DNA of 57,893 nucleotides from Candidatus Omnitrophota bacterium (GTDB lineage: Bacteria; Omnitrophota; Omnitrophia; Omnitrophales; Aquincolibacteriaceae). The stretch is from assembly GCA_903856085.1 (NCBI GenBank), contig CAIOAT010000049.1, forward strand, positions 1-57,893, in the 5' to 3' direction. A program made the position numbers and the translations under genes. The first letter of the stretch is position 1, and the number at the start of each line of letters is the position of its first letter. The notes under the pieces are model-generated. The model saw only the letters and a list, made by a program, of their open reading frames with translations. It ran no database searches and was not told the origin of the DNA. Positions 4,630 through 42,594 of the stretch are shown here, piece after piece.

Positions 4630-7600
4630 TCAAGCAGATTGTTTGACGGACTGAAAACCCTCGATCGCATTCATAAGAGCTGTCGTGAGTTCCTGGAAGT
4701 GTGTCGCAATATTCCTGGGCGAGCCTTTTGAGATCTTCGGGTCAAGAGCCGCATACAGCGCTTCCGAGATCTCCGCAGCAAGGATCTTCATATTCTCCTG
4801 AGCTTCCGGACTGTTATACCAAAGCGTTGCCCGATCCGTTCCGGGAAGATCCTTCTTCTCCCCTGCTAGCAAAACATCCTCCCGAACGCCGGGCTCTTTA
4901 AGAGATCTGAATAAACTCCCCTCAGATCCGGCGGCGCCAAAGATACGAAACTGCCCCTCAGCGATTGTGATCCCATTACGCGCGGCTCTGTCGAGGAACT
5001 TCTGCTCAAGCCCCTTGGGAGCTGCTCCCTGCACGTTCAAATAAAGCTTCGTATTAAGCGCCACCGCAAAAGCCAGAAGGATGGGCGCAAACTCTGCCAA
5101 GGCTTCAAGCTTTGCTTGCGTAAGCAGAGGAAGTGCCACATGGACCCCACGTTCCTCCAATGTGGAATCTTTCGCGCCCGTGACCTTGAAACGCTCCAAG
5201 GACGCGATCACCTTCTGCAACGCTTCATTATCGATCCGGCCTTCCGCGCTCTGTTGCGCTCTAAAAGCCTCAAGCAACTTCATCGCGATCCAAAGCCTGG
5301 CTTTTATCAGATTCTCTTCCGTCACACCCTCCTTAAGACCTGCCGCGATCCCTTCCGCCGAAAAAGCTCCCACGGCTTCGGCCGCTTCGACAACAGGAAT
5401 TTGAATAGCCTCGGACAAAAGACCCGCCACAGGCTTGAAATCAATTTTCCCAAGCACCGTTTGGATCGTCCGGGTAGCGCCCTGCCCAAGATCCAGCACA
5501 CGAATCTCCGCCCGGGGAAACGCACCGGATCCATCCTGCTTTGCAGGAGGATTGAAACGGAAGGATTTTGGGACCGCAACAAGAAGTACTTGACTACGGA
5601 ACTGCGTGTTGTATTCAGGATAATCCGTAGGTTTTTTCAAAGTCTGAACGTCAAATCCAGCTTCCCGGATCTCTCTGATAATCCTGGCGTCGATTCCTTC
5701 CGTCACATCCGTTTCTTCGATTGTCACCAAAAGGAGTCCGGAGGGCTTTAAAAGTTCCTTTGCACGGCGGGCGAGTTCCCCGGGAGCTGTTTCAATATGA
5801 TTAATGGTGACGATATCGAAAGTGTTTTCTCCTAAAGAACGGAATTCTTCAGGGAATTGAGCGTTCGCATGAACAATGCTGCCCCGAATACCTGCTGGCG
5901 CTTTATCGATAATGCTTTGTAACGGTTCTGTCCCGATCGCAGTATTGACCCGATAGCCCATGCGTTCTAAAAACGTTTTGAACTCCGGAATAAAATTCCC
6001 CATACCTGTATCAAGATCAGCAGAGGCTAAAACTGAGCCCACCGAAAATTTTTCCTTCAAAATATCCGCCAAGGATCCCCTCATCTCGGGGCGTCCCCCA
6101 ATTCCACTCGGGGTAACCTTTGCGATCCGTTCAACCTCGCGTTGAACACTTTCTTGTGAAAGAATCCGCTCCACACCAATTCCAGGTTTGAAACCTCGTC
6201 TTTTTGCAAACGCTTGAGAACCTGGAGTCATCGCATTAAAACGAATACCGCCCGTCACCCTCAGGTCAGGATTATTGGCCATGGAAATGAGCGTATCCAT
6301 CAGAAGATCCGCAACTCCCTTGATCCGGCCATCACTTCCGATATTTTTGTAATAGATCTCGATCTGCGGGACCGCGAGATGAAAGGTGTATTTCAGCCTC
6401 TTAACGTCAAAACTCTCCGGATCGCCGTCAAACCCGACAAAACCTTCCAGTCTTTCCTGCTTCCCAACCCGGGAAACCACGCCAATGGCAACATCGGAAA
6501 TGTAACCGAAATATGGAAACTGTTGTTTGGTAATCTCCCGGCTGTCGCCCTTCGCTTCGCGGGCCCGGAGCCACATTTCATCCGACTGAAGCTCCGCCTT
6601 CCATTCACCGAGAAAATGGATATCTTCCTTGGGGTCCAGTTTCTGGATAAAAAATGCGCGGCCCTCCCGCTGACTGTCCCTCAAAACTTTCTCGCCGAAA
6701 TACGCCTTCACCTCACCGTCCGTTAACCGGACGGGTGTTCCGAATTTGTCCGCAACATAATTTTTGATGGTATCCAGTCCCAAAGTCTCCACGGCGGAAG
6801 TCCCCACGGGCAAGCGCGCCTCGGAACGAGTTTCCAGAGGGATCGCGGATAAAAGCTTCTTTCCGCCAAGAAGATCATTATCGAATTGGACGAGATCCAA
6901 CGAGTCGACCTGATATTCAAAAAATGTCACGTTTTTATAAGCGTCGAATATCTCCTGCAACTCCTGAGCCTCCGCCGAACTGAGATCATCCTTCAACTGA
7001 AGAAGCGGTACCGCAAAAACCTTCCCGTCGAAAGTATTTAAAAGGTTCCGCATGTCTGAAAATTTGTTCTGGGAAACTACGGAGTTGAGCTCAGGATAGA
7101 TCCTCAAAAAAAGCCTGGCGCCAATTTTATCCAGAGTCCAAAGTCCTTTAGCGCGGATCATGACGGGCGACTGGTCCTTCAGCTGGCTCTGGACCCAAGG
7201 AACAAGCCCGGGAGACCCGGCTGGACGCTTCTCGAGCGCCCCGGCTACCGTCAAATGAATCGCGTCCTCATCTTGCAAAACGATCTTTCCATTGAGAAAT
7301 CCCTTTGAACTCTTGATTTGGCCAAGCAACCGTCGATACTCGGTGCTTTGAGATAGCATCTGCTTTGGAATTTCGTGGATGAGAGAAATCCTCGTACCCT
7401 TGGCAATATCAGCTGCAGCATCAGTCACGTAAGGTTCCTGCCGAAGTAACGGATGCGAAGGATTCACAAGCCTTAAAAAACGGGCCGCATAGGCCGGTAA
7501 CTTGACCGTAAACTTATCCGAGGTGATCGGGATCTGCTGCTCATCATATTTTAATTCCCGGTCATCCGAAAACCTTCGCACTTCGAAGCGCGCTGAAGAA

Positions 7601-10600
7601 GGTGCCGGTGGCAGCTGCAGGAATTCTCTTACATCTGCCCGGGAAAGGAGCGGAACATCGCGACCGTCCAGCAAGAGATTAAGACCCGCCCCAGAAGACC
7701 GGAGGTAGATCCTTATGAAAGGAAATTCCATCGATATGGGAGCCTCGATATTACTCTTTACGGAGAAACGGACTCCGTAAGCCCCCGATTTCGAAGCGGG
7801 AATAAGCGATGGCGGAAATATCAGCGTTCCATTTCCGGAAGCCTTGTCATCCATCACCAGCAGGACCTTTTGCGCCCGATCCGTCATGAGACGGCGAAGG
7901 ATCTGAAAAACCTCCGACTTTTTTGCCAGGGCTTCGACACGAGCCGGAGCTGCCGTTTCGCCCACAATGCCCATATTGCCGTTCTGCATGAGCCACAGCG
8001 TCCGTGGAGCTCCCTGCTCACGCGACCTTCTCAACTCGACGTACAGAACCCTCGCTTCAACGAGATGGTCCAGGATCTCAGGGAGAGAAACCGCAAGGGA
8101 CGGTTGCTCACTGGCTTGTTTCCAGAACGCAAGCGCACCTGCTGTGGACTCTTTACGAATGGCCTCGGGACTTTTGCCAATGTTGTCCGCCAAGAAGACG
8201 TAGCCATCTTTCGCACGAGGTCTTATCTCACGCAGGGAGACTTTGATCTTCTTGTTACGGTTTGCAAGGAAAAAAGCTGTGGCAGTCTTCGGATCACGCA
8301 GCCGGAGAAGTCCCTTAAGCTGGAGCCCTTCATGCTCGAAAACAACCGTGATTGCATTCTCGGTCTCCATCATAACGAGCCCACGAACCGTAACCTCGGT
8401 CCCCTCCAGCACATTCACAAGTTTTTCCAGAGTTTTAAATGCCTTGGAATCCGGTCCCGTTCGCGCCTCGGAACGGCGGGTGTAGACATGAATGCGTTTA
8501 AAAACAGTAGCGGCCGCTGGATTAAAATCAATCACGCGGTCATCAAAAATCCCTCCGCTTTGTCTCAGAGGTTCCAACAACTGCTCCGGACCGTACTCCA
8601 CCACCTTGCCGCCTGACTTCAGATGAGCCACAATCGTTTGCGCCAGGATTTCAACATTACTTGTGCCGGATGAATAGTAGTAGATCACGTCCGCATCCTT
8701 AAAATGCCCGACAGATTCCTCCGAGCGGAAATTACCCGGGTAAAGCTGAATTTGACCTTTTCCGACATACCCTTGGCTTTCGGCGACGGCGAGAAGCTTT
8801 TGACTGGCCTCAAATAATTCCGGATCCATCTCAATGCCCGTAAATTTTGACTGCGGGTAGGCGTGAGCAAGCATGATCAGAAAAACACCGTCCCCGTGTC
8901 CCGCATCAAGCACCGTTTGGGTTTTGTCTTGAGCGATCGGGAAGGCCTTAATGATCTCGACCATATCTTTAAGCGCGGTCCTTACAAAAAATCCCTCTCC
9001 CTTTCCGGTTTCCTTCATCGGGAAAGGACGGAATTCGAGACCTGCATCACGGTAAAGTTTTCTCACCACATCTTCGATCGGAGAAGACCTCACCTCAGAA
9101 CGGAGCGGCGCTTCACGGGCGGCCTGCTGCACCGCCTCTGAAAATTCAATGGCTTTTTTGACAGGTTCCTCCGCCTGAGTGATGGCCGCATTCACCAGCA
9201 CCGCATTAAACCCCATCTGCATGGCCACCCGGGCATCTTCCGGTGATCCAATGCCGCACTCCGCGATCAACTGGATGCCTGGCCGCATTTCCCTTGCCCA
9301 TGCCATCACCTGCAGGATCTGTGCTTTTTCCTCAGGCGTCCCGAGGCCTTTGCCCGAACCCGGTTTCGTCCCTTCGATCCGGAGAGCCAGGACCTGATCG
9401 TATTGGAGCAATTCCTGAAGCATCTCACGCGTGATGCCCTTTCCAATGAGAGGAAGCAATTTAAGATTCTTGTTCATCTCAACAAAGCGCTTGATAACGT
9501 TTAAGATCTCGTCATTTCGGGTCATCAACCCTTTATCCCGAACCTCGATCTTCAGAAAGGGCGTCTTGAACCAACGGATCCCGAAGGCCGCCAGTTGGAT
9601 CGCTTCGTCTGCGGTCTGAGCCTTGCTTGTATTGATGATGGTAAGAAAATTTCGCGTCTCACCGAGAGCCGCCAGCTTTTCTTGAGTTCCCTGAATGTAA
9701 GGAAGCCGCAGGAATTCAGGAAGCGTACGGATGTCCCCGTCCTTGCCCAGTTTCGAACGGCCTGCGTCTTTCTCGAAAGTCGCGCTTCTCAGTATTTGTT
9801 CGGCCTTTTCAACGGGCATTACTCTTCGAACCTGATCGATCTCTCCGGGAAGAAAGATAAAAACCTGCGTCCCCGATCGCACGGCAAGATCACTGGAAGC
9901 CTCTGCCGAAAGTATCCTGTAGCACAATTCACCGGACTCCCCATCAATGTGCGTCACGGCCGTTGGAGCGAGCAGGGGAAATAGATCGAGCCCATCGAGG
10001 ACAAATCGTCCCTGATGCTGATCCATAACTGCAGCTCTCATCACATCAAGTGCCCTTGTCTCCGCACGAACGAGATCACCAGAAAGGGTTGTCTGGCCCC
10101 CCTTCGGTTCTTGAAGATATTTAATGAAGCCTTCTAACTGAGGCAGGGACTCTATATACGGCTTGCGAGAAAGCGCAACCAAGCGATCTTTCGCCGAGGC
10201 CGGCGCATGATCGCCGAGCATTTGCAGAATCACAATAAGTTCTTCACCCAACCGCCTAAGCCCCTCATTCGAAGGGAACTCCAGATCATAAGTCCCCATT
10301 AGCCTTTGAATGTCTGCGCCGGCACTAGCGACGTTCTTGGCACCCCCTAAAGAAAGTTTGTCATAGATCGCCTTGAGCTCATTGCCGATATCTGCCTCCG
10401 AAAAACCGGGTCTTCCCTTGTCCAAGGCCCGGTCTTGAAGGAGCTGCCGGGACTCGGCGCGAATATCGGGATTATGAGCGTCCTTGGCTCCACCGGGCCG
10501 AACCAAGGAAACCCCAAACGGCATCGGAACGAATTGATCCGTTTTTCCATTCGCGATTTCATAAGAAGCAGCCAGCGTAGCCTGCATATATTGATAAAAA

Positions 10601-22600: not shown

Positions 22601-25600
22601 ATGAAACTGCCACGTTTTTCATCGCCCGATCGCCCCTTGACCACGGCGCCGCTTTGCCACCGCGAACCGATTGCCGCATCCGCTTTGCCATTGGCGAGCT
22701 GTTCCAATAAAAGACCGCTCTGGCCCATGTGCGTGGCCCGGTCCGCGTCCGTAAAGATCACATAATCGCAACCGTCTTCGAGCAATTTCCTCATCCCGAG
22801 AATGATCCCGCTCCCCTTTTTGCCGCCAATCTGCAGTTTCTGTTGGCGATTGATGAACCGCACCTGAACTTGACCCGAAGCAAGCCTATCGGGAAATCGC
22901 TCACGCAGGATATCCAAGGCGACTTCGCCAGAACTTTTCTGCGTTTTGATGACCGGGGCCGGAACGTTCCCTTCCAGTTTGCTTTTTTGCATCATCCGGA
23001 GCCCAAAAAACAGGCCGGACCGAACATGCTGGGAAAGAAATTTGATATACCATTGCCAGAACGGCGACTGCATAAGCGTCCCTTCAAGAAAACTCACACG
23101 AAGTTCATCATCGCGCAATGCTCCGTCGGGCACTTTCCGTTCACCGTCATCCATGATCAATAATTCATAAGACAATTTCGGATTCACGGAAAAGAGTTCA
23201 TCGAGCTCCTCCAACTTCGCCGCGATCGCGTCTTCCCCATGGGGATTATCCGCGGACTTCTTCATCAAACGGTTCTGCTCTCCGTACATCGAGAATTCGA
23301 CCCCGACCTTCACAGGCTTTCCGTCCTTGATCGGGAAACGGTAAATCCCCAGGAAGGACCGGATCAGCTTTTCGGCTTCCGGCAAGACATGATGGAATTC
23401 CTTGTCCCGTAAAAGCAATTGGTCAAGATATGTCGCGTGTTCCGCAGCATCCGGGCCCTTGAGGGCCTTGGAAAGGTTTTTCGACAAAAATGCCATACGC
23501 GAACGGTCATCCATCGCAGCCAACGTCCCATCTTCCCACGAGGAGCGCATCAGCACCGTCGACCAGCCATCCCGCACGTTATCAAAACGCGTTTCAGAAC
23601 GTTGCTTACCATCTTTTAACTTGAAGCTGGGGAGCATCTCTTGGGAAGGTTTTATTGAATAGACCATTTCGCCAGATCTTTCACCCGACTGAAAACCCAA
23701 AGCGCTCAGCGCGGGCTGTAAAGAAGCTTGTTCGGCTCCGATAAACTGAAAGATCATAGTGTCAGCTTTATAGAACTGCCCAAGAACATCGCGAAAAAAA
23801 TCGAAGAACCTGCGTCCCTGCCCTTGCGAACGAAACTCTTCAAAAACCTGGAACCTTACGTTGTAAGTTGCTTTCCCCCGGAAATTGAAAAGGGCATATC
23901 CCCGCCAGGACCCGTCTTCACCCTTGTAGCCCAACAAAGCGCCTTGGTTCCGGTCAAAGGTCCACACATACGCCGTTTCTGCCCTTCCGGCTTCCGCTGA
24001 TTTTCTCGAATAAACAACGGGCTGCTTTTTATTATCGATTTTAATCTCATCACCCGAAAAGCTCTCGCCGTCAGGAGCATATCGCTTGAGTGTGATCCCC
24101 CGGTTCCATAAATTATTAAGAAGATCATCTGCTAACGGCGCAATCGTTTGGGCCGACAATTCAATTTTCTCAACCCGCGCCTCTGCGCGCGCGTTGGCGA
24201 CTTGTTCCTTCCCGCGCCGGGTCAGGCGCGCCATCGCGGCCAGAGAAAGCGGGATCCCAGGAAATAACGGCGAAGCGCCAGCCCGGGGTTTAGTTCCCTT
24301 GGGAGTAATGATTTTCAGATCCCGCAAAGAATTCAGAACCGCATCCACATGCTCAGCATGGATCATTCCTTCCTGGCTGTGCATTAAGTTGGGGAGTCCG
24401 TAGAAATCTTTGGCATATTCTCCCCCAGTCAAGCTGAGGATCTTGTGCCGGTCAGGATATGCTTTGAGTTTGGTTCTCAGCTGTTCCGCGCCCAGCACAC
24501 CTCGTGCAGCGCCCGTCTGCTGGCTTAAGCCGGACATCAGTGCCGCAAACGCGTTCTTTTTCTTGTCACTGCCCAAACCCTGAGCCGTCTTGACTAGGAC
24601 CCGTTGGATCTCCGAAGGTTGATATCCGCCCCGGAGTTTCAAGTCCTCGAGATACGATTGGTACAGCTTCTCTAAATCCATATTTTGGCCGCCGGCTTGG
24701 GCAAGACTTAAAGTCTCAAGCCACGCCATATAAAAGGCCGCGCCTTTCACTTCATCCAGATCACGATGCAAATTCTTGCTGACCCGTTCCAGCACCGGCG
24801 AACTGATGTGATCAAGACCTTCCAGAGGATCGATCACAGGAAGATGCCCCATTTCCGCGAGCGCGATCAAAACCTGACTGTCCGAAAGACCCGGAAGCGA
24901 CATCGCCTTGAGCAGGGCTGCATCTTCAAGCACGGCCACCCATTGATTGGTTTCTTTTAAAATTTCCGGCGCCAACTGCAAGATCCTTTGGCCATGGTCC
25001 GGATGTCCGTGACCACCGTAGAGTGCCTCCAAGTGTCTCCCCTCCCACTCCAAAGATTCATGCCGCGCCCCAACTCTTTGGGCTTCTTCTGTTACAACCG
25101 AGGGTTGATCTTCCAATGCCGCAGGATAAAGCCCTTGAAGTATTGAGATCGGGCTCGTAGGAAATACCATTTCGGAGGTCGGCTGCTGAAGATTGTCGCC
25201 CGGCACCAGAACAGGCAGTGGAAGTTGTCCTTGTTCCGCATTTCGCTCCCGGTCCGCGTTCCGCTGGCTTTGCAAGTACACAAGTGTGCCTGAAAAAACA
25301 AGAAACGCCGCGGGAATCGCCCATATCCATTTAGGAATAGCCCCCTGGGTTTTCGGACGCAATCCCTGATCCCGGCCCTTCTTCTCCGACCCCCTCGGCT
25401 TATCTTGCCGCAACTCGGAGCGATTGGCGTCACCGGCCACACGGCCCCCCGCCATCCGCGCAAATTCATCAAAATAATGCTTCAAATCTATAATTGTTTT
25501 AGCCGTTATAGGCGGCTCTCCTGTGCCTTTATTGAACATTTCAACTAATTGTTGATTAACCGCTAATGTTTCCTGGAAGTTTATAAACGATGGATCAAGC

Positions 25601-28278
25601 CTGCCCAAATGACCGCTCGCCTCTGCTCGAATCAATCCGTCCACCGCACCTTTGCTTTTCACTAGACCCGCCGGCAAAACATTGACTTTGCTGCCTTCAC
25701 CAAGACCTAAGAATCCTTTATCTATAAAAGTGCCCGGCACATCAAAAACCAATATCACCATCCGGTGTCCGAATTGATGGCGAATATTCTCATCCAGATT
25801 GTCTGTAAATGTCGGGATACCAATTTGCTGATAAAAACCATAACGCAAAATATCAGCAACATATGAAAAATATGTGCAATGGTACAATCGCTGAGCGGAA
25901 CCGGGCATGGGAGAAACATGCTGTTCCGTCTGGCGTGCCTCGGAGCGGTTCGCGTTATCAGCAATCAGCTGTCTGCTGTCAGCTTGCGTCTGAGGACTGA
26001 CGGCTGGCTTCAGCTGATCTAATGAGCCTATCTCTGCCTTGACGGCGCCGTTGAGTGTCACGGTCTGCTGTTTTGTGGGAATGCCTTGAATGATATTCAG
26101 CATAAGCGCTTTGGGTGTCGGGAAACTCACTGTGGTTGTAACAGCTGAGTTAGCGAGATTCACGGATGTCACCTCTCCGGCATCGGGCGAACGCCACCAA
26201 ACTGCGGTGAGCGATTCCGGCATCACTGCGGAATTTTTCGGAACTGATTCCCGGCGACCGGTAGACTGAAAGCTCAGAGAAGCGGACTCTTTGGGACCGA
26301 CAGGCTCCACGGTCACCGCTGTGGAGAGCACAGGATTTGATCCGATCGAGCGCTGAACATTCGCTGCGATCTCTTCGGGTTTCATTTGGTATTTTTCAAA
26401 AAGGGCGGGAGCAGCGACCTCGAGCATCTCTTTAAAAAAGATCGCCGCCTGTTTGGTAGCAAAAGGATTTTTGACCTTAAAATAGGCGCTCAGATCGGCG
26501 TTATCGCCGGCCATGACCTTCTGATACATTTCGCCGTGATCAGTCCGCGTAATACGAGGCGAAAACACTGCGTAGCCGATCCCCTTCTGACGCAGGATTT
26601 CTTCAACCCCGGGTGTGTGAAAACCACCGCTATAAAGAACGGAAACTCGGGGAACGGAAGAACCTTTTGGCTGACTCTTTCCCGGATAACGCTCCCCTTG
26701 CGTAAGTGCGAGAAGATTCGTAACGAGCGCTTCATCGCGGCGAAGCGACACTTCGTAAAAGTGCTCGGCCTTGTCGAGGAACGCCCCGAGGTATTTCGAG
26801 TCCGCGGAAAAACTCCGGATGGCCGCTTCATCCTCACGTGTCTTGTCATATTCTGATCGGCTCAATTCCAACCGGAGCATCTTCTCAAGAAGATCGAAAG
26901 TCCCGAGCTTTTGAACCAGCGCCTTTTCAGCTTCCGACCGGGCAAGCTTTTCGATCATTTGTCCTTCCAGCATATCCATTTCACGCATCAGTTCGGTCAC
27001 ATCGATCTCTGCTTGAAAGACCGCGAGCTTCCAGGTCTTCCAGAAAGCCTCTTTCCCGTCAAAAGACAGCTGATGCTTTTGGCCCAACCGGAAAAGCCCT
27101 TCAAGTAATTTTCGAGGATAGAGTGCCCGGCCCATGGCAGCGGTCAATGGCACATCGATATTTTTTTTCAAAAAACCGTTTTCCTGGCCAAAAGCGCTCA
27201 ATGCGCGCACATATTCTTTTTCGCCGGCATCCTTAGCCGCAGCCTGAAGAGTCTGGACGACTTCGTTCCACTGGCTTTTTGCAGCCTCAGGATCAAAGCC
27301 CTTACGACTCTCTTCGAGCATCACGATGCGAAAGAGATTCGGGAAACGCAATTGTTCGATGGCGTCCTTGAGATCGATCTCGAGAAGTTTCAGGGCTTGC
27401 TGACGCAAGTAACGAGTGTAGGCCTGAAAATCCGGGTCACTTTGAGCTGAAGTCTGAATCCCAAAACGACCGTCTTTGCGGCGGCTCCGCTCCTTGAGGA
27501 AGGCCCGGAGTTCCCCGTTTAATTTTTGGGAGCTTTCCTTTTCCAGTTCAGCCCGAAGCGGATTCAAAAGAGTCTGTATCTCATCCGTGTGAGACAAAAG
27601 ATCACGATACGTATCAAGATCGTCGTGATAGAGAGCGGTATTTTCGATGCCGTACGCCTGGGACGCGCGGGACGAGGCATGCAGAACGTTGAGCGGATTC
27701 GTTTCCCGTTCCCCGTTTTCCGGCTTTATATGCTGATGTTGCCCCAGCAAATAAAGCTCGGCGCCGTTCAATTCACCTTTTTGGTGGAGATCTTCGATCA
27801 CCGCGCGATTCGCTTCCGGAAATCCCTTAGCAAGATTCAAATATTCAGGATGCAGTTCGCCGGAAGCACCTTCAAGACCGATGACAAGTCCGGGGACTTT
27901 TGTTTCCAGGTACTTCAACATCGCGGCGACGTTTTGCTGGCCCTCGGGATTGGCGTGCGCGTCCTGGACGAGCACGATAAATTGCTCGTGCTGGGAAACG
28001 GGAGACGACAAACGATTAACGGTTTCGCTTGTGCGTTCCGCGCGCCCCGTCCCGCGTTCCCCGAAATAAGTTTCACTTATCGTACCGATCTCAGGCGGCA
28101 AGGAATAAAGATAGCCTTGAAGCTCCTTTTGAAATTTTGCATGATCCTGGAAGGCAAAAGATTCAATGGCGGCCATAGCCTCAGATGGATTTCCGATGAG
28201 AGTGGTCACCGTGAATACAGTGGCTACAAACAAAGAAATTCCCCTAAGCATCAAAGATTTTATGTTAGCAGATGTCAT
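4630..28278 (-). CDS. Giant 7882-residue modular protein with Arg-[Ser/Ala]-Glu-x-Arg tags
   Basis: One frame stays open for 23.6 kb. It begins with a Sec-type signal (Lys-rich n-region, hydrophobic core at about residues 12-30, Ala-Met-Ala-Ala). Nineteen exact R-[SA]-E-x-R tags divide it into domain-sized segments, many resembling whole enzymes; they are listed separately. Order: ChaN/EreA-like, ART-like segment, TM plus helical, GNAT, GT2 glycosyltransferase, YdcF/DUF218, PTS enzyme I-like, GlnD-like HD and ACT, three HPr-like domains, phosphodiester-glycosidase-like, helical segments, kinase-like, ThiG-like, methyltransferase, two unknown segments, GNAT, methyltransferase, and a C-terminal helical part. 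No PKS or NRPS carrier domains, no adhesin repeats and no C-terminal sorting signal were seen. A promoter lies at 28375-28404. The start has no clear Shine-Dalgarno; in-frame TAA just upstream rules out a longer N-terminus. Function of the whole is unknown. Giant ORFs are known in Omnitrophota, which supports the placement. Polyprotein processing is inference. Confidence 0.9.
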   Translation of the reverse strand: MTSANIKSLMLRGISLFVATVFTVTTLIGNPSEAMAAIESFAFQDHAKFQKELQGYLYSLPPEIGTISETYFGERGTGRAERTSETVNRLSSPVSQHEQFIVLVQDAHANPEGQQNVAAMLKYLETKVPGLVIGLEGASGELHPEYLNLAKGFPEANRAVIEDLHQKGELNGAELYLLGQHQHIKPENGERETNPLNVLHASSRASQAYGIENTALYHDDLDTYRDLLSHTDEIQTLLNPLRAELEKESSQKLNGELRAFLKERSRRKDGRFGIQTSAQSDPDFQAYTRYLRQQALKLLEIDLKDAIEQLRFPNLFRIVMLEESRKGFDPEAAKSQWNEVVQTLQAAAKDAGEKEYVRALSAFGQENGFLKKNIDVPLTAAMGRALYPRKLLEGLFRLGQKHQLSFDGKEAFWKTWKLAVFQAEIDVTELMREMDMLEGQMIEKLARSEAEKALVQKLGTFDLLEKMLRLELSRSEYDKTREDEAAIRSFSADSKYLGAFLDKAEHFYEVSLRRDEALVTNLLALTQGERYPGKSQPKGSSVPRVSVLYSGGFHTPGVEEILRQKGIGYAVFSPRITRTDHGEMYQKVMAGDNADLSAYFKVKNPFATKQAAIFFKEMLEVAAPALFEKYQMKPEEIAANVQRSIGSNPVLSTAVTVEPVGPKESASLSFQSTGRRESVPKNSAVMPESLTAVWWRSPDAGEVTSVNLANSAVTTTVSFPTPKALMLNIIQGIPTKQQTVTLNGAVKAEIGSLDQLKPAVSPQTQADSRQLIADNANRSEARQTEQHVSPMPGSAQRLYHCTYFSYVADILRYGFYQQIGIPTFTDNLDENIRHQFGHRMVILVFDVPGTFIDKGFLGLGEGSKVNVLPAGLVKSKGAVDGLIRAEASGHLGRLDPSFINFQETLAVNQQLVEMFNKGTGEPPITAKTIIDLKHYFDEFARMAGGRVAGDANRSELRQDKPRGSEKKGRDQGLRPKTQGAIPKWIWAIPAAFLVFSGTLVYLQSQRNADRERNAEQGQLPLPVLVPGDNLQQPTSEMVFPTSPISILQGLYPAALEDQPSVVTEEAQRVGARHESLEWEGRHLEALYGGHGHPDHGQRILQLAPEILKETNQWVAVLEDAALLKAMSLPGLSDSQVLIALAEMGHLPVIDPLEGLDHISSPVLERVSKNLHRDLDEVKGAAFYMAWLETLSLAQAGGQNMDLEKLYQSYLEDLKLRGGYQPSEIQRVLVKTAQGLGSDKKKNAFAALMSGLSQQTGAARGVLGAEQLRTKLKAYPDRHKILSLTGGEYAKDFYGLPNLMHSQEGMIHAEHVDAVLNSLRDLKIITPKGTKPRAGASPLFPGIPLSLAAMARLTRRGKEQVANARAEARVEKIELSAQTIAPLADDLLNNLWNRGITLKRYAPDGESFSGDEIKIDNKKQPVVYSRKSAEAGRAETAYVWTFDRNQGALLGYKGEDGSWRGYALFNFRGKATYNVRFQVFEEFRSQGQGRRFFDFFRDVLGQFYKADTMIFQFIGAEQASLQPALSALGFQSGERSGEMVYSIKPSQEMLPSFKLKDGKQRSETRFDNVRDGWSTVLMRSSWEDGTLAAMDDRSRMAFLSKNLSKALKGPDAAEHATYLDQLLLRDKEFHHVLPEAEKLIRSFLGIYRFPIKDGKPVKVGVEFSMYGEQNRLMKKSADNPHGEDAIAAKLEELDELFSVNPKLSYELLIMDDGERKVPDGALRDDELRVSFLEGTLMQSPFWQWYIKFLSQHVRSGLFFGLRMMQKSKLEGNVPAPVIKTQKSSGEVALDILRERFPDRLASGQVQVRFINRQQKLQIGGKKGSGIILGMRKLLEDGCDYVIFTDADRATHMGQSGLLLEQLANGKADAAIGSRWQSGAVVKGRSGDEKRGSFIYNMTTKLFLGFWGIRDTQCGFKGFTRELLEEILPVDSQWRLDPDFTYNFAFDTHLLLRIRNAKKKILEVPVVWIGSPEESTLSTESKIEAVLSLAKQVPFIWSSISSRSEVREPLKTRSEMREKFRNELIPPGQRYVNYISAPDEFASSPDAFLLLGNPSLRSFLEFSKKWKAIKQETGRSVPIVLAGGYGRGTPPLARRIIDHYKSLGRLDPAEEAWIQRAMTREGGVYESDLMRFVLEREGVAVKGDRTLVRDEIQHSTVTVENFTFSAPVIETATAGVEHPVIAIVTAPQLLRRAQATARKAWDGKTWTPKKYGTYPVQLEGMTDEELIEMMGYVIGYPQAVVDSFKAKGQKLNLFSEYRGLFPANNPSVLPQESEIPANVPEDLQTAAHAFEGFLGTFSSLRYEPVGERLAPETVLVQPGAGSSESEKAAAVLEALNGLTDFQRSGTGQLLDFAGETALMDLGDIKALLTKGELSGKKGARAVTAGKLKEWIERPVVREVDEGHAHEVIRVVPGGFENFGIFIRELGEIGLLEHDAIFSLMEAFVRQDRLSVTGLEKLFDAMIASGFLKESEKEAFLVRARKKQFSQTQILRTVPKPPEAPGPGSPSPRSEVRVREVIEDGTIFTSRPAVGQILQMQFKQKSKPGDETDHATFHWDMPRSDSFAERFSNAQEMAAAFAKELTTSYQGDISVGRRKDGAGKWVAIPPSERGLLHWIFPAVEAGIFRDALSEISKMESSLAVPGGTGPVEHPVSRILSLLEASKEVLVRHLQTAYEHDATIPVPEDGSTTHDRANLAVKELIRLVADFVQMFYLTQNGKDDLGFIQRLVNEKAALYAAVFESQTKMLTTTALYVAMKKEAQATHDLEKKELEHIRDVLSQSPLPKRFSAGGWKQEIAAIIQGRFQSLDGELGRQLEVTHAELEKVADEKPDSFPKRDLLYKQQALEKRRKAIDVRLRELTAQLSQAADISKFLGAVRKDLKILATTMEIDKKYIDEHEDAPTRSNAASGKQQIYEGFPFTLNERVEKETQQKSGASMLRLLYDDFFLRVFQSRLRMGVHRGTQNFTSFSDSGKTGQDFFREVMDDLEAKEEGNQGKGVPDAGASYILVVPLETSNLDISRMMERYKHQIKGIIGVGANRQTHWVVLIRGRAYVPQILLVPASQEGKLTKLEGTKAILMPQQGRQGLLILNPSLEDLAAEKKKAEDYRRLRRFQGLMRNIPSSIPIAGNFEAQSTVAAIEGGTLPGLIRTDVDIVPKNEDDSSGVLFQYLKTLATGVVETKVDPLKWLQSFQTRSEIRTAGSEDLMARFSRLDPEGVGNAEAIHGLLKFWAVPFEQILTQKAFSGGDVPIRTIDLQRDSKNRAILQMLEAIAAEHPASTLRKDPSQPISGFDLYENSSLGELVLVLELAAMIVAAQKAGRTLSETERGRLVPLFPLIKTHAQFEWIRKKLWPLAQQIALWEIATGSGANPEEIERAEGDIRKIGEETRFGIMVEYMSLLEVTDPEDQTPDPSKRKKTFSPEMVKFWEDPFIVRLNVGNNDLWKDYWQTKNVEVDRENSAAAFLMDDLDGHLTVTLEALISRAQQSGKKVCFCGGIAETDKFLLAAEWWRRKFGVKDLSAKDSPFSVSVTGDVVARVNHALQVFRAIPDEELSAVFGAAEGSDILDGRAQELSNRYLSVSEKVSILVEEWQERYESAGFHHALYRLNIDPEKGIGGSSEFIFLKNLMQVWLANDPEALASLRLSSTENSVDRSEIQRILQYLANRGMLIPANIEKVLQSFDFIQSVQETYRELQGKDPDKFSGNLYPAIMGEFINAWEKKYGRPDWLAEGRTDRDETSAGDRKEEQRINDFYRYFHNSAASIFYTVRRTLHEIDGVLIRPVYTYGENEGKLEAFAGWDGQPSWILGQTRYGLTMSRERGRKGEAGYYIHVDHALENFRANPALMFRVFMLAAEKGAFISHRTQWAMEALMLEGSLDYQDAFNDFFGELLRSKKDISYVMWRMEEFGFLDKSLHHLSELNMYSLKDGTLFPLKMQALQTLETLERLDTKEKGFVYQRAAGVYRELRSDPEAVQLARLAVMLHPIVEVEAGDRFSVEDVKRITHEFLQKSNMDQGSLDQPNPLRDKLVWLMLNQHRFARHGFLSEDDIVKTMSEVVHSKGVTLDLFRVLYAVTFSKQAAEANPESRIMLPRQGADSPLADLDMLFFAGMKMLGDKQLSAQTAMKEAKQTVIWGGKEELAAQLGEFIRAQKWGSILDDYLANTQGGDDVSLRELLVKTVETPALFDPLFRQFSGRTSTYYMRTMDLGSLLKQLFFFRHLLYLKEKGDRSTRATIFSPLPHQYNQAYEVIFGSAFEESGDVALYTRTLFENGFSVENAAIRNPPGQPAFIRYLGFFPHGEEMPMVQKKITSELGAIFAPINIGDKVFRILKTDMEIRFKRADEVYGRSIIVDKRDAWIGPETKAKFLDDVSHQGKTVSVLTVHIASSNWRGQLLILSTVLSLIHGCDIENLKFEHIKGFPPETQIFLTRKGKILSRAQKDLIAKNVARILDMKPITILGKEAVVEQPTPKSEKIVKNLRINPLTKLHNRPASQLVKLIAQYNVENAVLRVADRDINLKSIGAVLASGIVGGTDVTIILEGKKNAKLKELMYRIQAEVVGEQGDSEGPIKLFMPSQRSEMRAHEWREFLIVSKRGIHAVPTELIVKTIKNHQNLMIRVENENGEVRATFPNNQTLFMSIMRLAAAPGSTMKFVVEGPDQRSIQNFFTELLATAKDGNEDIFRQVQSESKVLPPGFTAGVMEAAVVIKIAERSETRVQEERESTVLNKLGIHAQPSTLIKKVGDRFPELEIEVEKDGERVNGKKIMGLLALAAGPGSVLKFVVKGPEVLIRRYFQELAMIEDNGEKVFKIPPRAESRPLVPILKSGVMELASGILSSRRSEVRTKEGISRRVAIQRGLLAFAGIALLGGISEILAEQREKAGEKKFAPADYQLEVVPVSDSLINAIRNPKSGLIFASTINPYRVNDKDQKIPSGWVIANVNGKRVEVSSRNPNNFGSAMAKVIGVVDRSGRLRFYDNQTYRTTGQEIFAFQAGPFAVKPGGQINENVREWYRALFHGKASVIGVDAKGNVYTKLFVGQEPFGITGRLRAKAMMEELAAWKKTNGITEATFVDSGTAGISRYDRKSPPYVLIARKRLPAVVPVVTSKPRSELRIPAQGVVSETGEVPEEFVGTIISTKPEITPADSMKFAELLGHIFLNALIVFNFYRIEEKGKAVPGDEVFLYLGEATDMLQALYDELNPENPKGSLFFSPRSPRMFFTASTPAYGSERHKPEVVKYEGEAFKAMAATLGFNELRESMKTPLATLNEIRKSVPEEDVYSELVLARLQEAEEQLKVAYRSALDRASGRSEKKIGVTTPLNVEEEALRGQDQLEREARQRAGFDRYTVLFEKVHELAQQTDNPGASVIAGISRFASEVKGWEIEALIKEYFRALKGLRDGEYLNKMPSSFFSDPESYEGDVDRNLFVQLNTYMQLIDDTEMKAKLAGEDFTLLERSAKDWLIFRELNRRVKSDPELADQADALFEMIPRFEVRASDSKKEVMAFLDSFGIGSGRDGVLSFNRIAREEEGWFMKSVRPEDKNGLVVTNLTALPVLTPAHPLESFPVLGEGNYGSVMVLLGPLPVGKDGKNIPAVIKLFRMPGTRALGITRDSSKETKSVLDLRYKEELSAVQVLSILGVGPKLYGVLRDQDGLIMGYAMQYVVGESIPDIIKLFGFPGIQELFKKLMSVGLTLTTDVIRTPSGDFVQIDPVVANEEVFQAFVRAHTSEGSAQVSSWPMVKTGRSGNVGIPPAPVSFHIPAREEALGEVTWQTNEGRQITFNVTSVVNKDDDLKRIILRQTNPPAQGIPFAPDLMAYSIQGKFRGVYINPSNRDITGKGFLAPLLKLFFDRFPEVRSTHELMINPAVSEILARDYDFKPAVLEHPVVWMRKDRANTKVLLFFENEEDKKFFYQYMQATLAASYEIANGKTDQFVPMPFGVSLVRPGGAKDAHNPDIRAESRQLLQDRALDKGRPGFSEADIGNELKAIYDKLSLGGAKNVASAGADIQRLMGTYDLEFPSNEGLRRLGEELIVILQMLGDHAPASAKDRLVALSRKPYIESLPQLEGFIKYLQEPKGGQTTLSGDLVRAETRALDVMRAAVMDQHQGRFVLDGLDLFPLLAPTAVTHIDGESGELCYRILSAEASSDLAVRSGTQVFIFLPGEIDQVRRVMPVEKAEQILRSATFEKDAGRSKLGKDGDIRTLPEFLRLPYIQGTQEKLAALGETRNFLTIINTSKAQTADEAIQLAAFGIRWFKTPFLKIEVRDKGLMTRNDEILNVIKRFVEMNKNLKLLPLIGKGITREMLQELLQYDQVLALRIEGTKPGSGKGLGTPEEKAQILQVMAWAREMRPGIQLIAECGIGSPEDARVAMQMGFNAVLVNAAITQAEEPVKKAIEFSEAVQQAAREAPLRSEVRSSPIEDVVRKLYRDAGLEFRPFPMKETGKGEGFFVRTALKDMVEIIKAFPIAQDKTQTVLDAGHGDGVFLIMLAHAYPQSKFTGIEMDPELFEASQKLLAVAESQGYVGKGQIQLYPGNFRSEESVGHFKDADVIYYYSSGTSNVEILAQTIVAHLKSGGKVVEYGPEQLLEPLRQSGGIFDDRVIDFNPAAATVFKRIHVYTRRSEARTGPDSKAFKTLEKLVNVLEGTEVTVRGLVMMETENAITVVFEHEGLQLKGLLRLRDPKTATAFFLANRNKKIKVSLREIRPRAKDGYVFLADNIGKSPEAIRKESTAGALAFWKQASEQPSLAVSLPEILDHLVEARVLYVELRRSREQGAPRTLWLMQNGNMGIVGETAAPARVEALAKKSEVFQILRRLMTDRAQKVLLVMDDKASGNGTLIFPPSLIPASKSGAYGVRFSVKSNIEAPISMEFPFIRIYLRSSGAGLNLLLDGRDVPLLSRADVREFLQLPPAPSSARFEVRRFSDDRELKYDEQQIPITSDKFTVKLPAYAARFLRLVNPSHPLLRQEPYVTDAAADIAKGTRISLIHEIPKQMLSQSTEYRRLLGQIKSSKGFLNGKIVLQDEDAIHLTVAGALEKRPAGSPGLVPWVQSQLKDQSPVMIRAKGLWTLDKIGARLFLRIYPELNSVVSQNKFSDMRNLLNTFDGKVFAVPLLQLKDDLSSAEAQELQEIFDAYKNVTFFEYQVDSLDLVQFDNDLLGGKKLLSAIPLETRSEARLPVGTSAVETLGLDTIKNYVADKFGTPVRLTDGEVKAYFGEKVLRDSQREGRAFFIQKLDPKEDIHFLGEWKAELQSDEMWLRAREAKGDSREITKQQFPYFGYISDVAIGVVSRVGKQERLEGFVGFDGDPESFDVKRLKYTFHLAVPQIEIYYKNIGSDGRIKGVADLLMDTLISMANNPDLRVTGGIRFNAMTPGSQAFAKRRGFKPGIGVERILSQESVQREVERIAKVTPSGIGGRPEMRGSLADILKEKFSVGSVLASADLDTGMGNFIPEFKTFLERMGYRVNTAIGTEPLQSIIDKAPAGIRGSIVHANAQFPEEFRSLGENTFDIVTINHIETAPGELARRAKELLKPSGLLLVTIEETDVTEGIDARIIREIREAGFDVQTLKKPTDYPEYNTQFRSQVLLVAVPKSFRFNPPAKQDGSGAFPRAEIRVLDLGQGATRTIQTVLGKIDFKPVAGLLSEAIQIPVVEAAEAVGAFSAEGIAAGLKEGVTEENLIKARLWIAMKLLEAFRAQQSAEGRIDNEALQKVIASLERFKVTGAKDSTLEERGVHVALPLLTQAKLEALAEFAPILLAFAVALNTKLYLNVQGAAPKGLEQKFLDRAARNGITIAEGQFRIFGAAGSEGSLFRSLKEPGVREDVLLAGEKKDLPGTDRATLWYNSPEAQENMKILAAEISEALYAALDPKISKGSPRNIATHFQELTTALMNAIEGFQSVKQSA
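4633..5499 (-). other. Giant-protein module 22 (res 7594-7882): C-terminal segment
   Basis: About 290 residues, mainly helical, with one hydrophobic helix near the middle (around 'FAPILLAFAVAL') and a polar C-terminus. No anchor, sorting signal or known family was seen. Confidence 0.4.
5515..6078 (-). other. Giant-protein module 21 (res 7401-7588): second methyltransferase-like domain
   Basis: TFDIVTINHIETAPGEL, RAKELLKPSGLLLVTIEE and an Ile-Arg-Glu-Ala-Gly-Phe helix match motifs IV-VI of class I methyltransferases. The Gly loop is degenerate (DLDTGMGNF), so SAM binding is uncertain. Confidence 0.5.
6094..6813 (-). other. Giant-protein module 20 (res 7156-7395): second GNAT-like domain
   Basis: IEIYYKNIGSDGRIKGVADLLMDT fits the GNAT acetyl-CoA-binding strand-helix (degenerate G-x-G), and NAMTPGSQAFAKRRGFKPG fits the C-terminal 'A...yek.GF' segment. 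Confidence 0.55.
6829..8460 (-). other. Giant-protein modules 18-19 (res 6607-6896 and 6902-7150): unrecognised
   Basis: Two beta-rich segments separated by a degenerate tag (RFEVR, residue 6897). An 'HLTVAG' strand in the second recalls one half of a 2H phosphoesterase motif, but the partner His motif was not found. No assignment. Confidence 0.3.
8476..9087 (-). other. Giant-protein module 17 (res 6398-6601): SAM methyltransferase-like
   Basis: VLDAGHGDGVFLIML is the SAM-binding Gly loop, KFTGIEMDPELFEAS the acidic strand-2 end, DADVIYYYSS the motif-IV strand and LKSGGKVVEYGP motif VI. It is a complete class I Rossmann methyltransferase in size and order. The substrate is unknown. Confidence 0.75.
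9103..10053 (-). other. Giant-protein module 16 (res 6076-6392): ThiG-like (thiazole synthase) barrel
   Basis: NTSKAQTADEAIQLAAFG, FLKIEVRDKGL (with the Schiff-base Lys position kept), a GSGKGL turn, ECGIGSPEDARVAMQMGFNA and VLVNAAITQAEEPVKKA follow the ThiG order closely. ThiG condenses DXP, ThiS-thiocarboxylate and dehydroglycine into the thiamin thiazole. The upstream ~90 residues are not recognised. No ThiS or other thi genes are in the window. Confidence 0.75.
10069..10446 (-). other. Giant-protein module 15 (res 5945-6070): small helical segment
   Basis: About 126 residues of predicted helix between two Ala-type tags (RAESR and RAETR). No family recognised. Confidence 0.35.
10462..11844 (-). 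other. Giant-protein module 14 (res 5479-5939): protein-kinase-like domain
   Basis: LGEGNYGSVMVLLG is a glycine-rich ATP loop. AVIKLFR supplies the candidate Lys, and ILGVGPKLYGVL and MQYVVGESIPD fit the N-lobe and hinge. The C-lobe is short: instead of HRD and DFG there is DVIRTPSGDFVQIDP, so it is probably a pseudokinase or atypical kinase. A second half ends in a GNAT-like strand-helix (GKGFLAPLLKLFFDRF). Confidence 0.5.
11860..12981 (-). other. Giant-protein module 13 (res 5100-5473): helical, unrecognised
   Basis: Mostly charged amphipathic helix, divided by a degenerate tag (RSEKK, residue 5294). A short hydrophobic helix near 5135 is too polar at its ends for a sure TM call. No family recognised. 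Confidence 0.4.
12997..13788 (-). other. Giant-protein module 12 (res 4831-5094): Tat-like signal plus phosphodiester-glycosidase-like domain
   Basis: Six residues after the tag at 4826 comes Ser-Arg-Arg-Val-Ala-Ile-Gln followed by a hydrophobic core, a Tat-like signal. The domain behind it has FQAGPFAVKPGG, a 'GVDAKGNVY' strand and FVDSGTAGIS, matching the NAGPA/DUF2233 pattern (QAGPxLV...IGxDxxGxxx...LDGGxS). Such enzymes remove GlcNAc from phosphodiesters or act on envelope polymers. Confidence 0.55.
13882..14169 (-). other. Giant-protein module 10 (res 4704-4799): HPr-like domain 3
   Basis: LGIHAQPSTLIKKV places His4719 at the active site with Gln replacing the usual Arg. VNGKKIMGLLALAAGPGSVL is the clearest HPr signature in the protein; Lys stands where the regulatory Ser would be. 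It is a recognisable duplicate of module 9. Confidence 0.75.
14185..14571 (-). other. Giant-protein module 9 (res 4570-4698): HPr-like domain 2
   Basis: RGIHAVPTELIVKTI puts His4585 at the phospho-acceptor site, but the neighbouring Arg is Val. TLFMSIMRLAAAPGSTMKFVVEG corresponds to the regulatory helix and the strand-Gly-turn of HPr. A Gly-Val-Met-Glu linker and then a tag follow. Confidence 0.65.
14587..14880 (-). other. Giant-protein module 8c (res ~4468-4564): HPr-like domain 1
   Basis: LHNRPASQLVKLI places His4476 at the HPr phospho-acceptor position with the Arg two residues later retained. INLKSIGAVLASG matches the HPr 'Ser46' helix, including Lys-Ser. A strand, a Gly and a final helix complete the ~85-residue fold. 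Confidence 0.6.
14880..17618 (-). other. Giant-protein module 8b (res ~3554-4467): degenerate GlnD-like HD and ACT region
   Basis: The order recalls the uridylyltransferase GlnD after its catalytic domain: a helical run, an HD-like helical domain, and a terminal ACT-like fold. In the HD-like part LARLAVMLHPIVEV stands where 'LLHDIGKG' is expected, NQHRFARHGFLSEDDI resembles the 'H...R.....D' segment, and LFRVLYAVTFSKQAA resembles 'Ly.LT.aDi.A'. The ACT-like part starts VSVLTVHIASSNWRGQLLIL at about 4364. The HD metal ligands are largely lost, so catalysis is unlikely. Confidence 0.4.
17619..20748 (-). other. Giant-protein modules 7-8a (res ~2511-3553): PTS enzyme I-like protein
   Basis: Enzyme I landmarks occur in the correct order: an N-terminal 'S-R-P-A-x-G' strand, a long coiled coil, the phospho-His swivel region with His3037 in a Gly-Ala-Asn-Arg-Gln-Thr-His context, a 'LILNP' strand, IRTD (about 3142), VPIRTIDL (about 3240), ENSSLGE, MVEY, NVGNNDLW (about 3430) and CFCGG (Cys3484/3486). 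EI passes phosphate from PEP to HPr. Here the barrel Glu after Cys-Gly is Gly, and the total is nearly twice usual length. The tag at 3188 falls between the swivel half and the PEP-binding barrel. Confidence 0.6.
20764..22233 (-). other. Giant-protein module 6 (res 2016-2505): YdcF/DUF218-like domain
   Basis: DAFLLLGNPSLRSFLEFSKKW, PIVLAGGYGRGTPPLARR, an ESDLMRFVLEREGV helix and a 'ST...EN' helix start reproduce the DUF218 (YdcF/SanA/ElyC) core, a Rossmann-like family linked to envelope functions. The C-terminal 250 residues are helical, with a Pro-rich end before the tag at 2506. Confidence 0.6.
22279..23586 (-). other. Giant-protein module 5 (res 1565-2000): family-2 glycosyltransferase-like
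   Basis: The sequence resembles dolichyl-phosphate glucosyl/mannosyltransferases. It has a Gly-Lys-Lys-Gly-Ser-Gly turn, the metal-binding IFTDADRATHM (Asp-x-Asp), AAIGSRW, DTQCGFKGF and a later FDTHLLLRIRNAKKKI-LEVPVVW. The first ~120 residues are helical. In GT2 enzymes these motifs bind the nucleotide sugar and acceptor lipid; no TM anchor is seen. Confidence 0.75.
23602..24174 (-). other. Giant-protein module 4 (res 1369-1559): GNAT acetyltransferase-like
   Basis: The strand-turn-helix of GNAT motif A is visible: FQVFEEFRSQGQGRRFFDFF, with R/Q-x-x-G-x-G/R for acetyl-CoA pyrophosphate binding. A later LSALGFQSG matches the usual 'GF' strand before the C-terminus. Confidence 0.6.
24190..25407 (-). 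other. Giant-protein module 3 (res 958-1363): internal TM segment plus helical region
   Basis: A basic stretch directly after the tag at 953 is followed by one clear transmembrane helix (about residues 979-998, starting Trp-Ile-Trp-Ala-Ile-Pro). It looks like the N-terminus of a separate membrane-anchored protein. About 350 mostly helical residues follow; no family recognised. Confidence 0.5.
25423..25932 (-). other. Giant-protein module 2 (res 783-952): possible ART-like domain
   Basis: LYHCT near the start, an Ile-Leu-Arg-Tyr-Gly-Phe turn and a Pro-Thr-Phe-Thr-Asp strand recall the 'LYHGT...IL..G...S' pattern of ADP-ribosyltransferase-like folds. No catalytic Glu can be assigned. The C-terminal part is helical. 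Confidence 0.25.
25948..28278 (-). other. Giant-protein module 1 (res 1-777): signal peptide plus ChaN/EreA-like domain
   Basis: After the signal, VQDAHANPEGQ (about residue 102) and IGLEGASGELHPEY (about 133) resemble the metal-ligand and 'E-G' motifs of the TIKI/ChaN/EreA fold. YSGGFHTPGVEEIL (about 560) resembles its C-terminal His motif. Between them lies a long alpha-helical insertion. The final 120 residues are low-complexity linker. The fold assignment is tentative; hydrolase or haem-binding roles occur in that superfamily. Confidence 0.4.
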
Positions 28279-32619: not shown

Positions 32620-33882
32620 TTATTTTCCGTCTTTGCGGATACGGTTTAAAATCGCAGGCATGTCTCGTTGAATATGCGCGTAAAACTTCTTCAGACCGGG
32701 ACAAAGATAATTCAGGCCGGGCTCGCCGGCAGGTGTCCGAATAAAGCGGTTCTTCGGACATTCGCCCCAGCAAAGTTTCAGATGTAAGCAAGTACGGCAG
32801 TCCTGAGGCAAAGCGTCCCGTTTGTCAAAACCGAACTTTTTTTGCCGCTCAGAATAGGCCATAGCGCTCCAGTGCTTTTCACGGATATTTCCGACGCGGT
32901 ATTCGGGATAGACGTAGTGATCGCACGTAAAAACATCGCCGTTATGCTCCACCACCATCCCTTTGCCGCAAAACTCGTTCGTGACGCAGCGCTGCCCCGG
33001 CAATCCCATGGATTGCGCCACCGCTGTCTCAAATAGATCCACAAATACTTTGCCGCAATCACGCCTATACCAATCGTCCCAAACCTTGCAGAGGAAATAA
33101 CCCCAATCATCCGGATCTACCGACCAATCCGTCACCACCGAATCCTCCGCTCCAGGCTTGGATTGTAGCGTACCGACCCCCGGCATGTTCGCCTTGTCCC
33201 ACCGCTGTGGTGCTACGCTGCAAAAAACTTTCGGTTCAACGCAGGCGATCAATTGCACCCGCTGCACGCCCAGCTCGCGCGTCAGAAAACGATAAACATC
33301 GTATGGAAATTTTGCGTTTTCACGGTTCACAACACACAATGCGCAGAATGGGACGCCATGTTTTTTAAGCAGGTGCGCAGCAGCCATGACTTTATCGTGT
33401 GTCGGCTCGCCACCTTTCGTCACGCGGAAACGATCATGGAGACGCTTCGGGCCATCAATACTGAGCCCCACAAGAAAGTTGTGTTTCTTGAGAAAAAGAG
33501 CCCATTCTTCATCAAGCAGAATCCCGTTGGTTTGCAGATCATTCTCGATTCGCTGGCCCGGCTTGCAGTATTTCTCCTCCAGAGCGATCACTTTGTAAAA
33601 AAAATCAAGACCCAAAAATGTCGGCTCGCCGCCCTGCCAGGAAAACACCACCTCATCGCCCGTCTGCGCTTCGATATATTGGCGTATGTGCTGCTCGAGG
33701 ATTTCATCAGACATCCGCGATGCTTCCGGCTGGCGGAGCAGTGCTCCCTTGTGCAGGTAGTAGCAATAAGTGCAGTTGAGATTGCAGGTCGAACCGATCG
33801 GCTTGACCATCGCGTGAAAGCGATGTTGTTTATCGGCAGGCTGCGGCAGGAACGTCACGCTAGGTTCAACGGGAAGAAGCAT
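32620..33882 (-). CDS. Anaerobic sulfatase-maturating enzyme-like radical SAM protein
   Basis: The radical-SAM cluster CNLNCTYCYY (Cys-x3-Cys-x2-Cys, about residue 34) is followed by the SAM-binding FSWQGGEPT, a SIDGP strand and a C-terminal SPASM domain holding two auxiliary Fe-S clusters (CGKGMVVEHNGDVFTCDHYVYPEY, then CRTCLHLKLCWGECPKNR). The 420-residue length and motif order match anSME, which oxidises a Cys or Ser in sulfatases to formylglycine. No sulfatase gene is in this window, so the substrate must be elsewhere or unconventional. Confidence 0.88.
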   Translation of the reverse strand: MLLPVEPSVTFLPQPADKQHRFHAMVKPIGSTCNLNCTYCYYLHKGALLRQPEASRMSDEILEQHIRQYIEAQTGDEVVFSWQGGEPTFLGLDFFYKVIALEEKYCKPGQRIENDLQTNGILLDEEWALFLKKHNFLVGLSIDGPKRLHDRFRVTKGGEPTHDKVMAAAHLLKKHGVPFCALCVVNRENAKFPYDVYRFLTRELGVQRVQLIACVEPKVFCSVAPQRWDKANMPGVGTLQSKPGAEDSVVTDWSVDPDDWGYFLCKVWDDWYRRDCGKVFVDLFETAVAQSMGLPGQRCVTNEFCGKGMVVEHNGDVFTCDHYVYPEYRVGNIREKHWSAMAYSERQKKFGFDKRDALPQDCRTCLHLKLCWGECPKNRFIRTPAGEPGLNYLCPGLKKFYAHIQRDMPAILNRIRKDGK

Positions 33883-42007: not shown

Positions 42008-42014
42008 AGGATTA

Positions 42015-42584: not shown

Positions 42585-42594
42585 CGTTGCCTCC

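Follow-up and report, generated by a model that had tools for sequence, protein, structure and literature searches.

A giant open reading frame punctuated by a short tag

What kind of product is encoded by a bacterial gene of 7,882 codons, in which the five-residue sequence Arg-[Ser/Ala]-Glu-x-Arg recurs between segments that resemble separate enzymes? The question is raised by an intact open reading frame (ORF) on the minus strand of the window, the whole 57,893-nt stretch of DNA analysed here, which runs from an ATG at 28278 down to a single terminal stop at 4630 (Table 1). Giant ORFs (>20 kb) are already known in Omnitrophota, and their function is described as obscure in the accessible parts of the reports (Seymour et al. 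2023, PMC10066038; PMC12057145; PMC11573180). At 23.6 kb, the present ORF exceeds this length, and the gene adjoining it shares 87–90% identity with genes of Candidatus Omnitrophota genomes, which places the window in this phylum. Elsewhere in the window, sequence reading points to an apparent kdp potassium-transport operon (38652-46340; KdpA/B/C and a KdpDE-like two-component pair), a protein that opens with a radical-SAM Cys motif and resembles the anaerobic sulfatase-maturating enzyme (32620-33882), and a transposase-like ORF that runs past the window end (57005-57892).

Exactly 19 R[SA]E.R matches (14 RSE.R and 5 RAE.R) occur in the giant ORF, compared with 0.40 expected from composition and a maximum of 4 in 2,000 shuffles, which bears out the count of nineteen exact tags, far above chance, given by an earlier sequence-only reading of this DNA. 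That reading had also allotted one tag to the other proteins of the window; these ordinary proteins hold three loose matches (RAERR, RAEER, and RSEIR), and the figure of one holds for the form with a hydrophobic residue at x (RSEIR).

The ORF opens with a signal-peptide-like N-terminus, of a kind present in nearly all complete homologous giants, followed by an N-terminal family domain whose fold was predicted with a pLDDT of 87. Foldseek returned no significant PDB match for this domain, with erythromycin-esterase-like hits at E > 1 only; a single-protein phmmer search of residues 1-4000 against the PDB and a search of the domain against the genome_contigs collection also gave no match. The whole ORF contains 8 Cys, few hydrophobic segments, and no adhesin domain in Pfam scans. 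The hydrophobic segment at residues 984-1003 may be a membrane anchor that a captured protein has kept, and the twin-arginine-signal-like segment is apparently a leader left over from such a protein.

The first 660 residues match 14 loci in this genome and 1–34 loci in most relatives of the order, and giants carrying the domain are often open frames of 5,000–11,700 residues. A sample of 40 long frames from 18 genomes of the order (239,274 residues; the N-masked 26,995-codon frame G001_C5 was left out) contained 408 R[SA]E.R tags, 78 of them with Ala at position 2, so that the high tag density proposed as a check on wider Omnitrophota was indeed found, within one order. Cys accounts for 0.00–0.27% of residues in the giants versus 0.91% in adjacent shorter ORFs. 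RSE.R is the most enriched four-residue pattern in the giants of this genome, and likewise in most RSE-type genomes. In genome-wide DNA counts, RSE[hydrophobic]R exceeded its reversed control by 50 to 7 in this genome and by up to 265 to 18 within its family, with no enrichment in the other classes of the phylum; by these whole-genome counts, the tag is restricted to a single order of Omnitrophota. The same family also includes tag-poor giants of comparable length (G010).

Table 1. Features of the giant ORF and a trypsin-like gene of the same genome (window positions unless a contig is named; aa, residues of the giant ORF)
Feature	Position	Strand	Remarks
Giant ORF	4630..28278	-	7,882 aa, intact
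Signal-peptide-like N-terminus	28168..28278	-	aa 1-37, ...NPSEAMA/A; sequence reading
N-terminal family domain	26299..28167	-	aa 38-660
Tag RSEAR	25933..25947	-	aa 778, joint after N-terminal module
Tag RSELR	25408..25422	-	aa 953
Hydrophobic segment	25270..25329	-	aa 984-1003, shortly downstream of tag; sequence reading
Tag RAEAR	24175..24189	-	aa 1364
Tag RSETR	23587..23601	-	aa 1560
GT2 glycosyltransferase-like module	22504..22818	-	aa 1821-1925; Pfam scan
Tag RSEVR	22264..22278	-	aa 2001
Tag RSEMR	22234..22248	-	aa 2011
DUF218-like module	21670..21921	-	aa 2120-2203; under Pfam cut-off
Tag RSEVR	20749..20763	-	aa 2506
Module aa 2517-2912	19543..20730	-	homologous to aa 772-1145 of G021_C20
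PTS enzyme I (EI)-like region	17719..19299	-	aa 2994-3520
Tag RSEIR	18703..18717	-	aa 3188; conserved in G021_C20
Block aa 3231-4564	14587..18588	-	conserved in homologous giants
HPr-like module 1	14677..14886	-	aa 4465-4534, His kept
Tag RSEMR	14572..14586	-	aa 4565, low-pLDDT linker
HPr-like module 2	14299..14550	-	aa 4577-4660, His kept
Tag RSETR	14170..14184	-	aa 4699, low-pLDDT linker
HPr-like module 3	13957..14160	-	aa 4707-4774, His kept
Tag RAESR	13867..13881	-	aa 4800, low-pLDDT linker
Tag RSEVR	13789..13803	-	aa 4826, low-pLDDT linker
Twin-arginine-signal-like segment	13690..13776	-	aa 4835-4863, SRRVAIQRGLLAFAGIALLGG, directly after tag
Tag RSELR	12982..12996	-	aa 5095
Tag RAESR	10447..10461	-	aa 5940
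Tag RAETR	10054..10068	-	aa 6071
ThiG-like module	9109..9687	-	aa 6198-6390
Tag RSEVR	9088..9102	-	aa 6393, 3 aa past ThiG match
Methyltransferase module	8599..8958	-	aa 6441-6560
Tag RSEAR	8461..8475	-	aa 6602
Tag RSEAR	6814..6828	-	aa 7151
Tag RAEIR	5500..5514	-	aa 7589, opens conserved C-terminal module
C-terminal module	4633..5514	-	aa 7589-7882
Trypsin-like A1 member	G000:C32:7665-8423 (L110:1166-1927)		this genome

Tags mark the joints between modules

Tags do not fall inside domains as often as between them. In a Pfam scan of seven giants, none lay within any of the 40 domain matches, where 13.6 would be expected, and the modules often started 3–30 residues downstream of a tag (MraZ, 3; HPr, 3 and 7; RtcA, 6; ACP, 9; starch synthase, 11; IMPase, 13). 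In 132 inter-giant alignments, which are mutually non-independent but show a tag effect far beyond the simulations, 69 of the 264 ends lay within 25 residues of a tag, compared with 25.7 expected and a maximum of 38 in 300 simulations, and the alignment interiors held 23 tags against 143 expected, an approximately sixfold depletion. Tag spacing has a median of 336 residues, about one tag per module, and in 22 of the 25 giants with the N-terminal domain the first tag is located 580–820 residues from the start, just past that domain.

Within the window ORF, HPr module 2 can be aligned with HPr module 3 from one tag to the next. An AlphaFold model of residues 4440-4860, built on a shallow alignment of three sequences, contains three HPr folds with pLDDT mostly of 60–80; the four tags all fall where pLDDT is under 50, which puts these tags in predicted disordered linkers between or after the HPr folds. 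Comparison with homologous giants revealed that the module at residues 2517-2912 occupies a different slot in G021_C20, where it comes after the tag behind the N-terminal module. The block at residues 3231-4564 has no tag in the window ORF; in several homologous giants it terminates at a tag or close to one. The C-terminal module is conserved in three homologous giants (G002, G003, and G021), each of which has a tag where this module starts or close by. As a counterpoint to the polyprotein reading, the 23 alignment-interior tags and the one at residue 3188 in the EI-like region indicate that tags may lie inside modules in some cases; the latter possibly sits in an insertion within the EI-like barrel, as an exception to the joint rule. 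Overall, the claim that the tags stand between domain-like segments is strongly supported, as joints between modules, order-wide.

The tag is constrained as an amino-acid sequence

Arg at positions 1 and 5 and Glu at position 3 are strictly required: Lys was not above chance at R1 (4 found, 5.1 expected) or R5 (2 found, 5.1 expected), nor was Asp at E3 (2 found, 4.4 expected), compared with 384 copies of the tag itself where 6.4 were expected. Across 387 tags, the residue directly after R5 is rarely Pro (4 versus 17.7 expected), though Pro is enriched just upstream of the tag, and is frequently Ser, Thr, or Ala (154 versus 78 expected), with Leu, Arg, and Tyr avoided. These preferences are indirect evidence of cleavage, in that they recall those at P1′ of a protease whose cut follows R5; alternatively, the avoidance of Pro could reflect binding of the tag as an extended strand.

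Tags are kept at homologous joints whose flanks are 19% identical, so they do not go unconserved where the domains are conserved. In 46 such aligned pairs, picked for a tag on both sides and hence informative on codon divergence rather than on the rate of tag loss, the successive tag codons differ in 31, 35, 20, 40, and 38 of the 46. The tag Ser is encoded by TCN in 323 of 330 cases and by AGY in 7 (108 expected), with AGY freely used by other Ser residues of the same proteins. No single silent change leads from TCN to AGY or back, which makes one coding ancestor of the tags, followed by silent drift, probable.

Position x varies by genome (heterogeneity p about 1e-60): Leu fills it in 62 of the 63 G019 tags, Val is the commonest residue in G009, G021, and G028, and Met in G014. 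Such dialects are the picture that would be expected of a tag co-evolving with its recogniser. Families f4, f5, and f7 are without RSExR enrichment, and their giants (L066-L105, L160-L178) carry a joint tag of the form [AG]-x-SLG, namely A-x-SLG in f7 (G032, G036, G039) and f4 (G038) and G-x-SLG in f5 (G030), which appears to stand in for RSExR. The Ser of this tag is nearly always encoded by AGY, the mirror image of the RSExR tag. One such giant (G039:C16:137000-154800; L083) contains many copies of a repeat of ~40 residues (LRELGEGVREGKV...EVLNVELFERIAEASGE) between its A-x-SLG tags.

Four further accounts of the tag were tried and rejected. A DNA motif, palindrome, or hairpin is contradicted by the lack of covariation and by unconserved flanks, and a larger repeat inserted in frame by flanks without conservation; translation starts within the ORF, at the codon-4 NTG, do not agree with the use of every Leu codon in G019, nor does phosphorylation at the tag Ser agree with the roughly one-fifth of tags (78/408) in which Ala takes its place.

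Modules retain catalytic residues

The domains named in the sequence-only reading were largely recovered: GT2, DUF218, the EI C-terminal domain, three HPr, ThiG, and one methyltransferase were found, some of them under the Pfam cut-off. The claimed GNAT domain had no Pfam hit in the window ORF; one GNAT occurs in a related giant. Residues 3484-3490 of the EI-like region (CFCGGIA) look like the Cys motif of the EI active site. Across the giants, the modules keep DSL (ACP), DPIDGT (IMPase), GGGKGG (GDH), HDDQHGT (malic enzyme), YxxxK (epimerase), Walker A and DEAH (helicase), and the Asp of the receiver, assignments that we take from established knowledge of those families. GGSCFPKD is preserved in the UDP-glucose dehydrogenase module of a frame that has 4 Cys among more than 6,200 residues, and the Cys retained in these otherwise Cys-stripped chains are few, with catalytic ones among them. 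Judged by such motifs, the modules look active.

In this genome (G000), UDP-glucose dehydrogenase C-terminal domains were found solely in the giant ORF at G000:C13:334000-353999 (L051), which may thus hold the only copy of this enzyme in the genome. Most genomes also carry an ordinary stand-alone HPr, which makes the HPr modules of the giants diverged paralogues. Many modules require cytosolic cofactors (ATP, NAD, CoA), which is odd in a periplasmic protein and speaks against export. With dehydrogenases, a kinase, a helicase, receiver and HTH domains, and carrier proteins among their modules, the giants could be exported libraries of cytosolic-type enzymes and regulators, nearly Cys-free and cut at a lineage-specific tag that co-evolves with its protease, possibly acting in the cell of another organism; we regard this broader proposal as tentative and rather doubtful.

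A proposed processing route and its candidate proteases

Our best explanation, to which we give an even chance, is that the giants are exported polyproteins cut after the tag by an Arg-recognising protease. A Sec-type signal would take the giant chain out of the cytoplasm, with the family-specific N-terminal module leading a string of unrelated, folded, and putatively competent enzymes, every joint being a predicted disordered linker with R-[S/A]-E-[hydrophobic]-R. The protease would read Arg, Glu, and Arg, cut past the second Arg, and free the modules, which could then act outside the cytoplasm, in the envelope, at the surface, or in another cell. The suggestion of a polyprotein with processing, docking, or sorting signals at its joints thus holds for the placement at joints; processing is favoured among the three by the strict need for Arg/Glu/Arg and by the Pro-poor, small-residue position after R5, with no protease found in the searches below.

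Clostripain (C11) was absent from the genomes searched, as was gingipain (C25), for which the control was likewise silent, and Peptidase C14 occurred in 3 of 56 genomes. A caspase-like C14 gene was observed in this genome (G000:C3:166573-167214) and in only two other relatives searched. A lineage-specific secreted trypsin-like family (A1), single-domain and with an invariant catalytic triad, is present in most tag-bearing genomes, and about half of its members have what we take to be the trypsin-like Asp at position 189. However, A1 is missing from the tag-bearing G002, G008, G015, and G017, of which G015 and G017 are tag-rich, and the proposed check for a co-occurring trypsin-like protease gave no consistent partner. 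None of C11, C25, C14, and A1 co-occurs consistently with the tags, and none fits as the tag protease. A trypsin-like domain was also noted inside a 1,505-codon open frame of this genome (G000:C39:26777-27280).

Alternative readings of the tag

The main rival to cleavage is an uncut docking or anchoring tag, whereby a partner (a surface scaffold, chaperone, or export factor) would bind the extended RxExR so that the modules form a multi-enzyme array at the cell surface. Docking also fits the strict recognition, the dialects, and the position in linkers, the tests of C11, C25, C14, and A1 gave no protease, and one report, in its accessible part, proposes a surface or adhesion role for giant Omnitrophota proteins (PMC10066038). 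Yet small residues and the lack of Pro exactly one position past R5 are seen more typically at a scissile bond than in a binding peptide, and no repeated partner domain was found; we consider docking unlikely. The same report, in its accessible part (PMC10066038), views giant ORFs as coat or adhesins, which would also suit inert structural strings of decayed enzyme paralogues with tags as merely favourable linkers, and the divergence of the HPr modules from stand-alone HPr fits such decay. This is improbable in our judgement: unrelated modules have preserved their catalytic residues, even the catalytic Cys of chains that are otherwise nearly free of Cys, and a generic linker would accept Lys.

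About as improbable is a tag that plays no part in the protein and is the scar of a captured module, formed at the DNA level or through short homology when modules were inserted or duplicated. The Ser codon box, by which the tags descend from one coding sequence, the tag-to-tag alignment of the tandem HPr units, and the different slots of modules among homologous giants all agree with capture. Against it, the tag codons have diverged with R, E, and R unchanged, Lys and Asp are not tolerated, base-to-base covariation and palindrome signals are lacking, and one dialect is fixed across whole genomes; the 46 tag pairs point toward purifying selection at the amino-acid level. Finally, the tag could aid the synthesis or export of very long chains through ribosome pausing, translocation, or holdase binding, being neither cut nor docked, in keeping with signal-like N-termini, a tag density near one per module, and chain lengths that reach 11,700 residues. 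As similarly long, tag-poor giants exist in the same family (G010) and pausing signals need no Arg/Glu/Arg with free codons, we hold such an aid to be very improbable.

Comparison with known systems

The published Omnitrophota giant ORFs share the phylum, the length class, and a predicted extracytoplasmic location with the giants described here; the accessible parts of these papers report few domains and adhesion or transmembrane features, and mention neither a joint tag nor a chain of intact housekeeping enzymes (PMC10066038, PMC12057145). The journal papers we covered, mainly open-access ones, contained no description of a joint tag, and the tag-punctuated enzyme-chain design provisionally appears to be undescribed. 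Through the tag, the largest bacterial proteins that lack an explanation acquire a grammar that can be read: it predicts where modules begin and end in giants that resisted domain annotation, and yields a precise cleavage hypothesis. It also suggests a polyprotein strategy in bacteria, with tag dialects particular to each lineage and two alternative tag types.

The cellulosome likewise organises multiple enzymes outside the cytoplasm; in the giants scanned, Pfam identified no dockerin or cohesin, and the modules are covalently strung and are not glycoside hydrolases. The closest functional analogy is offered by the MARTX toxins, in which one very long secreted protein combines various effector domains and is processed in the unstructured stretches between them (PMC2900308, PMC6315884). 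An array of different enzyme domains is found here too, secretion is suggested by the signal-like N-terminus, and the four modelled tags of the ORF lie in segments predicted to be unstructured, as putative cleavage sites. In contrast to MARTX, the window ORF has no Pfam match to an internal cysteine protease domain or to RTX-type repeats, its modules are metabolic or regulatory, and its tag carries Arg where MARTX is cut at Leu, a Leu-type site that the [AG]xSLG tag of f4, f5, and f7 loosely recalls, as a lead only. As in viral-type polyproteins, one ORF encodes several functional proteins and a short recognition sequence recurs at the module joints; unlike these, the giants are bacterial, apparently exported, composed of about 20 modules, and encoded at many loci per genome.
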